The translations under genes and the position numbers were made by a program. Below are positions 4,570 through 11,778 of a stretch of 14,469 nt of DNA, piece after piece; the first letter of the stretch is position 1, and each line of letters begins with the position of its first letter. The stretch comes from Acidobacteriota bacterium (GTDB taxonomy: Bacteria; Acidobacteriota; Terriglobia; Terriglobales; SCQP01). The notes beneath the pieces were generated by a model that had not been told where the DNA came from, ran no database searches, and worked only from the letters and a program-made list of their open reading frames with translations. The stretch is taken from positions 1 through 14,469 of the forward strand of contig JAKATS010000258.1 of assembly GCA_021818645.1 (NCBI GenBank), written 5' to 3'.

Positions 4570-5049
4570 TTATTGCCTATGGGGCATGAAAAAGAAAGCG
4601 CTCGGAATTAAGCTGGCGGATGGAGGATCTGCGACGCATTTTGCGGAACAGTTGCAGCGCCAGCCGCTGGCCACGCCCTGATGGGTGGGATGGCGATTCG
4701 CCGTCCACTCCTTCCAGCCGACATTCATTTCACTCGCCAGAAATCCTAGTTCTGCCAACTGCAGAGCCGCTTTCGCCGAGAGCTGTCAATCATGGCCCCA
4801 GCAGTAGGTGACAATTTTCCGATCCCTGGGCAGGAAAGCGGCTAGTTGCGCAAGCTCTTCCATGGGTGCGCAGAGGGCTCCGGGGATACGCCCCTGGGCA
4901 AACGGTTCACTGCCGCGGGTGTCGAGCAGGGTGAAGTCGTAGCTGCCTGACTGCACCGCCTTGAGCACATCGGTCCGCGCTTTTTCAGCGCTTAATTTTT
5001 TCACGAAATATTCCCGGTTGGCTCGAGTTTGTTCTTCGGGAAAAGTCAT
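4570..5049 (-). pseudogene. Rhodanese-like domain gene with in-frame TGA at the second loop cysteine
   Basis: Reading from ATG 5049 (GGAAG seven bases upstream) gives 87 residues, then TGA at 4788-4786. The same frame continues for 71 residues to a TAA at 4570. The first part has a rhodanese fold: LLDTRGSEPF (D43-T-R), the RIPGA turn, and the catalytic-loop cysteine C83 in YCWGHD. The sequence after the TGA (QLSAKAALQLAELGF, then EMNVGWKEW) is clearly the rest of the same domain. Relatives have Cys at the stop position, giving a C-x4-C active loop, so one C-to-A change in TGC explains it. Either the gene is inactivated or UGA is read as selenocysteine. The tail beyond RCNCS (about 24 residues) does not look conserved, which hints at decay. 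Such proteins transfer sulfane sulfur; the physiological partner is unknown. The frame is also open upstream to 5130, but the 5049 start has the better ribosome binding site. Confidence 0.75.
4751..4765 (-). other. Small stem-loop downstream of the in-frame TGA, bSECIS-like spacing
   Basis: On the minus strand TCTGC (4765-4761) pairs with GCAGA (4755-4751) around a five-base loop, AGTTG. The loop starts 25 bases after the TGA and has G as its second base. That meets the loose published bacterial SECIS pattern as I remember it: a loop roughly 16-37 nt after UGA with G among its first two bases. A 5-bp stem is easily found by chance, so this is only a candidate. Confidence 0.3.
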
Positions 5050-11224: not shown

Positions 11225-11500
11225 TCACACGCCGAGTTTTTTCAAGGCTTCCTGGTAATGACGGCGGTAGAGCAAATCCCATTCCTGGCTGCCTTCGAGA
11301 ATTTCGCGTTTCTGGGATGCGATTTTCACCCGCGCCTCGGCGTCAATTTTTTCCTCGGCGTGCAGCATCTGTTCGAGCTGCTGGCGGATCAGCAGCCGCA
11401 GATCGTTGCGCTCGATTCGGAACACCACTTCCGGATGTCCCGCCAGTTCAGCGGTCACTACGTGAGCGAGCTGGTTGACTTTTTCCCGCGACAAGCGCAT
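11225..11500 (-). CDS. DUF507 family protein, downstream copy
   Basis: This 91-residue, highly charged, mostly helical protein is of unknown function. It starts MRLSREKVNQLAHVV and carries AEEKIDAEAR in the middle, which aligns with VENRINEEAR in the upstream neighbour, so the two are paralogues. The ATG overlaps the stop of the upstream copy by one base (TAATG), indicating translational coupling and suggesting a 1:1 complex. As I recall, PF04368 proteins in some phyla are about twice this length, so the pair may equal one longer protein split in two. Confidence 0.85.
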   Translation of the reverse strand: MRLSREKVNQLAHVVTAELAGHPEVVFRIERNDLRLLIRQQLEQMLHAEEKIDAEARVKIASQKREILEGSQEWDLLYRRHYQEALKKLGV

Positions 11501-11778
11501 TAGAGCACCACCTTTTTCTGTCGCACCAGCTCGTTTTTGATTTTCCGGAAGGCTTCCGAATACCCGGCTCCCAGTTGCTGCATCTGGGCCGAGTGGGCGG
11601 AAAGAATAGCCCGCGCCTCTTCGTTAATACGATTTTCCACGTTGAGCTCTTCAGTGATCGCTTGATGAACCCAATCCGCCACAGCAGCCGTGCGCGGCGC
11701 CTCAATGGCTTTGGCTTCGATCAAACGCCGCGTCAGTTCGCGGGAAAGATAGGTTACGTATTCGCGCGCAATTGGCAT
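11500..11778 (-). CDS. DUF507 family protein, upstream copy
   Basis: The 92-residue helical, charged protein begins MPIAREYVTYLSRELTRRLIE and contains EELNVENRINEEARAIL, the block shared with its downstream paralogue. No catalytic motif, signal peptide or membrane helix is visible and the role is unknown. It opens the DUF507-DUF507-DUF3467 set, 65 bp after the Nudix gene on the same strand. The start has a pyrimidine-rich leader (CACCTTATCTTT) rather than a Shine-Dalgarno. Confidence 0.85.
   Translation of the reverse strand: MPIAREYVTYLSRELTRRLIEAKAIEAPRTAAVADWVHQAITEELNVENRINEEARAILSAHSAQMQQLGAGYSEAFRKIKNELVRQKKVVL

Follow-up and report, generated by a model that had tools for sequence, protein, structure and literature searches.

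Rhodaneses accept sulfur on the first residue of their active-site loop, a cysteine, and selenocysteine (Sec) usually serves proteins as a redox residue. Rhodanese-type selenoproteins combining the two are named in several papers (PMC9312934, PMC2398784, PMC5029168, PMC8318568 and PMC1088965, in whose accessible text Acidobacteria do not appear), and the motifs UxxS, UxxG, CxU, UxxG and UxxxxU are reviewed, in the text available, in PMC13188914. No CxxxxU form, with a cysteine at the first loop position and Sec at the last, stands in the available main text of that 2026 review; additionally, the word "rhodanese" occurs only once in PMC1794560 (inside a reference title) and is absent from the main text of PMC12013277.

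The window analysed here (the whole stretch of 14,469 nt) carries, on the reverse strand at positions 4570 to 5049, a gene which we read, with a probability of roughly 0.88, as encoding a small rhodanese-fold selenoprotein with the loop C83-W-G-H-D-U88 (C-x4-U) and a C-terminal CxC motif, UGA88 being decoded as Sec. This reading is favoured by the conservation of the TGA, the coding constraint 3' of it, a constrained hairpin, the existence of relatives with Cys and the Sec machinery present in relatives' genomes.

The read-through frame and conservation of its TGA

From the ATG at 5049-5047 (reverse strand), translation gives 87 residues up to a TGA at 4788-4786, which is codon 88, then 71 more residues up to a TAA at 4572-4570, so that the predicted product has 158 amino acids plus one Sec. 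The preliminary description had reported this in-frame TGA, its domain-like continuation and a C as the base 3' of it, and the sequence bears this out: the score against the Pfam Rhodanese model (PF00581, gathering score 22.2 bits) rises from 33.4 bits before the TGA to 48.3 bits with read-through, the match spanning residues 27-117. The fold is that of other rhodaneses and of BH2092 from Bacillus halodurans (PDB 3nhv, 3o3w), which is the best PDB match both by sequence (E 9.3e-19) and by fold (E 2.8e-5), and whose loop CWGPAC aligns with the Cys83 loop of the window, with Cys where the window has Sec. The AlphaFold model of the product was mediocre (mean pLDDT of 69.2, and below 50 in the tail) and was therefore used for the fold only.

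Two cysteine sites accompany the Sec codon. Cys83 (4801-4803, reverse strand), which opens the loop, is invariant in our alignment A1 and in all 17 DNA sequences described below, and would be the catalytic residue by analogy with rhodaneses. The C-terminal C-x-C (codons 132 and 134, at 4648-4656, reverse strand) is also invariant in A1 and present in 16 of the 17 sequences, and we propose that it provides resolving thiols. Beyond it, the tail (4570-4647, reverse strand) had been described as eroded, but is instead an extension of about 25 residues past the point where relatives usually stop, with one extra Cys.

In a protein search with the read-through product against about 5.8 billion clustered proteins (157 matches, 120 listed), 119 of the 120 listed proteins, the window's own (P0002) among them, stop exactly before TGA88. 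The sole exception among those listed is P0001, with Trp at position 88, which could reflect translation of its contig under a code where TGA stands for Trp. When the gene of genome G287 served as query instead (135 matches, 120 listed), 110 of the 120 listed proteins stopped at that loop position too, 105 of them new and 5 already found, which brings the distinct database proteins ending at TGA88 to at least 224 (119 + 105, the window's own counted). The other ten listed matches are three subfamily members with Cys (P0123, P0125 and P0126), four more distant proteins with Cys (P0222, P0228, P0231 and P0235), a fusion without the loop (P0225) and two full-length proteins with Gly (P0121) and Trp (P0122) at position 88. 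The Gly and Trp of P0121, P0122 and P0001 count against the Sec reading; they are possibly TGA translated under another code, or point changes. A further search with residues 76-137 of locus L014 had no matches; as it also missed P0001, which is known to share long words with the query, nothing was drawn from its empty result.

At the DNA level, codon 88 is TGA in 17 of 17 distinct subfamily sequences with a readable loop (27 pattern matches gave 19 distinct sequences, two of which, L126 and L165, are unrelated and were left out; locus L125 of G442, with N over the loop, was left out of the DNA counts, although G442 is the 18th carrier genome). The homologue alignment at codon 88 proposed in the preliminary description therefore shows TGA, and not TGC, in close relatives. 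The related claim that relatives carry Cys exactly there stands mostly for the distant ones (Cys occupies the Sec position in 33 of 34 more distant rhodanese loci), and fails for the closest, which carry TGA. Cys at position 88 also occurs in P0123, P0125 and P0126, from metagenomes, which share 54-57% identity with the G287 version across 99% of its length, have the same C-terminal CxC as the Sec-type members and differ from them by Cys88. A fresh nonsense mutation in the window, raised earlier as the alternative to Sec, or a sequencing error there would need one base change only; it is refuted by a TGA shared by all 17 DNA sequences and by the ends of 119 of the 120 listed proteins, and we rejected it, leaving it a negligible probability.

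The coding signal does not end at the TGA. When 16 sequences are compared pairwise (120 pairs), pN/pS comes to 0.29 in codons 68-87 and, once the hairpin codons described below are set aside, to 0.22 in codons 89-122; comparing the window with the other 15 gives corresponding values of 0.25 and 0.21, and the window differs at no column which is invariant in those 15 (codons 68-87 and 89-123). The frame 3' of the TGA is thus under purifying selection, as is the part before it, and this constraint rules out a genuine short gene of 87 residues. L124 (G723) was excluded from these counts because beyond roughly codon 104 it departs from the family frame; it has no CxC either, and is a copy in decay or the result of an error in its sequence.

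A bSECIS-like hairpin downstream of the TGA

The bacterial SECIS (bSECIS) model, as given in the available text of PMC13188914, asks for a loop of 3-9 nt, a stem of 4-16 bp, a G as one of the first two loop bases, a spacing of 16-37 nt and an energy of at most -7.5. In the window, positions 4751-4765 (reverse strand) form a bSECIS-like hairpin, with a 5-bp stem (UCUGC/GCAGA), the loop AGUUG at 4760-4756 and 25 nt from the UGA to the loop. Stem, loop and spacing fit the model; against the limit of -7.5, the 19-nt piece folds at -6.2 and a 45-nt stretch at -8.9. In the 16 relatives, the 19-nt piece by itself is enough to satisfy the model (-8.6 to -11.3, with a spacing of 25 and a G as the second loop base). 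An outer C-G pair closes the hairpin in these relatives, whereas codon 100 of the window is GAA and not GAG, so that its outermost pair is C-A (C4766 opposite A4750); by the 19-nt piece, the window's hairpin is the weakest of the 17, which counts against the Sec reading. Apart from that pair, CUCUGC-AGUUG-GCAGAG recurs in 17 of 17 sequences, in each with its loop 25 nt after the UGA. Upon free folding of 45 nt, the hairpin is part of the best structure in 14 of the 17, the others being L017, L023 and L113, whose different best folds also count against the Sec reading. At the gathering score, no Rfam family matched within the window.

Codons 95-100, which encode the hairpin, read GCT CTG CAG TTG GCA GAG with only occasional departures among the 17 sequences, whereas wobble bases elsewhere are mostly variable. 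The mean pairwise codon identity (16 sequences) is 0.90 in the hairpin codons and 0.47 across a further 40 columns, of which codon 89 likewise attains 1.0; the Mann-Whitney p of 8.7e-5 for this difference is a guide only, because the sequences are related. Synonymous difference is likewise 0.127 in codons 95-100 and 0.733 in the remaining downstream codons. The hairpin is constrained at the RNA level and, being nearly frozen, is a place where covariation tells little.

Carrier genomes and their selenocysteine machinery

The gene is found in few genomes. Among 396 genomes of the phylum, three give matches with E < 1e-20 (the window's own metagenome-assembled genome (MAG), G000, together with G287 and G185), and in the class of G287 the gene occurs in 2 of 41 genomes (G287 and G185). 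Among 399 genomes of the window's class, 21 have a match at E <= 1e-14, of which 15 belong to the subfamily (including G000 and the partial G442) and the other six are distant rhodaneses (35-40% identity). The eight loci in named genome records all lie in records titled as Acidobacteriota groups. Outside these genomes, six stretches of viral contigs fit the pattern, with no relatives among them, and in 228 plasmid records the best place of each stayed below 60% identity (among the 15 best places listed, five lie on ArsR-type regulator genes). Across 13 loci, with frames read by eye, no neighbour gene is common, except between close pairs (e.g. L017/L018 and L114/L116), and gene context therefore gives no functional hint. 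Elsewhere in the window, we noticed by eye a forward-strand frame at 1886-2422 with a type IV pilin-like start (GFSLIELLVVVTIILILAAIAIP) and, on the reverse strand, two small neighbouring frames (91 residues at 11225-11500 and 92 at 11500-11778), similar to each other and perhaps a tandem duplicate.

The Sec machinery was assessed in 18 non-redundant carrier genomes: G000, G185, G287, G396-G403, G405, G412, G442, G448, G484, G544 and G723 (G397 to G403 being merged with their respective duplicates G431, G417, G741, G595, G672, G479 and G589, judged from identical coordinates and sequence). SelA is over the cut-off in 17 of the 18, the exception being G000, and SelB in 8 of the 11 carriers tested (below it in G000, G287 and G401). 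Sub-cut-off matches to the SelB model, in frames of 394-436 residues, are by their length probably EF-Tu and were not counted. ARAGORN confirmed a tRNA-SeC (TCA) in 13 of the 18; with 135-150 candidates scored per genome, none was found in G000, G185, G400, G401 and G402. One match in G000 lay just over the tRNA-Sec cut-off, but ARAGORN identifies it as a tRNA-Ser; similar matches elsewhere were handled likewise. No tRNA genes adjoin selA or selB in 18 loci. Two of these results count against the Sec reading: SelA is common in the phylum at large (over the cut-off in 249 of 396 genomes), and G185 (97% complete) and G402/G479 (98% complete) have SelA and SelB, yet no tRNA-Sec among their 135-150 candidates.

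Unusual suppressor-like tRNAs occur in Acidobacteria, and UGA88 could in principle be read otherwise than by Sec insertion, for instance by an opal suppressor tRNA that places Cys or some other amino acid there. The five of 18 carriers in which tRNA-Sec was not found, and the entries with Trp or Gly at position 88, agree with such a reading; we nevertheless hold it to be very improbable, given the constrained SECIS-like hairpin, the SelA of 17 of the 18 carriers and the Cys at position 88 of relatives.

The absence of selB and selC from the genome had been put forward in the preliminary description as evidence against Sec. It formally applies to the window's own MAG, where no SelA or SelB over the cut-off and no tRNA-Sec were found, but this is weak evidence against function, because the MAG is only 54% complete and the other members of the window's family that were sampled, five genomes in all, each have SelA over the cut-off and a tRNA-SeC (at E <= 1e-14 the TGA gene is present in G741 and absent from the remaining four). 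These missing genes, together with the weakest hairpin of the 17 and a tail that runs past the usual family end, would also suit a true selenoprotein family whose copy in the window is in early decay, in a lineage having lost Sec decoding. We regard such decay as unlikely, though less so than suppression, since besides the incompleteness of the MAG and the machinery of its family, the window keeps a pN/pS of 0.21 3' of the TGA and departs at no otherwise invariant column. Sec at position 88, the other alternative of the preliminary description, is therefore strongly favoured, with a conserved TGA, a constrained hairpin and SelA, SelB and tRNA-Sec in carrier genomes.

Proposed function and comparison with known rhodanese selenoproteins

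In the mechanism that we propose, the bSECIS hairpin just 3' of UGA88 would recruit SelB and Sec-tRNA(Sec), and the UGA would consequently be decoded as Sec. Cys83, perhaps after first taking a sulfane sulfur as a persulfide, would then form a redox pair with Sec88 via a transient selenenylsulfide, and the C-terminal Cys pair would resolve it, the outcome being a selenol-dependent per/polysulfide or disulfide reductase and not a plain thiosulfate sulfurtransferase. This activity we infer with clearly less certainty than the decoding, and we offer it tentatively.

It is conceivable, though doubtful enough to be put forward as a suggestion, that these proteins form a distinct family of Acidobacteriota reductases, with Sec at the resolving and not at the catalytic loop position, a Cys/Sec switch and a CxC relay, which would have been overlooked because gene callers stop at UGA. 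The at least 224 database proteins which end at TGA88 lack about a third of the product, and a single family model could correct these annotations. The CxxxxU rhodanese, whose Sec takes the last and not the first loop place, would join the known selenoproteins in a form that opens the idea of a Cys/Sec redox pair within a sulfurtransferase fold to direct testing.

The window's protein passes no cut-off in NCBIfam (release 20). The nearest model is NF041203 (rhodanese_LYCAU), likewise a small rhodanese-type (seleno)protein, which the window matches with 48.8 bits against a cut-off of 115, and which 9 of the 9 members of alignment A1 match at E <= 0.1 (best 1e-14). It corresponds to form 3 (CxU) in the available text of PMC13188914, where Sec lies two residues after the Cys, whereas in the window it lies five after. 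On the reverse strand of locus L048 (G095), we also observed a rhodanese-like frame resembling this CxU form: its in-frame TGA lies two residues past the loop Cys (YCSU), and a hairpin with a stem of 7 bp and a loop of 5 nt (-11.6) comes after it; both Sec placements, CxU and CxxxxU, may exist in this phylum. Form 1 of the same review text (UxxS, WP_010941598.1) may belong to the same family as the window's gene, because the U-Q-L-S of the window fits UxxS, the two being compared by motif alone. The fourth NCBIfam model, NF045694 (TsoB, a rhodanese/DsbD-fusion-like double selenoprotein), gives the window 25.4 bits against a cut-off of 805; it has 572 positions, whereas the window's protein is no fusion. 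TsoB is form 5 (UxxxxU) in the review text, with Sec five residues after the first Sec, and the window has the same spacing, but with Cys at the first place.
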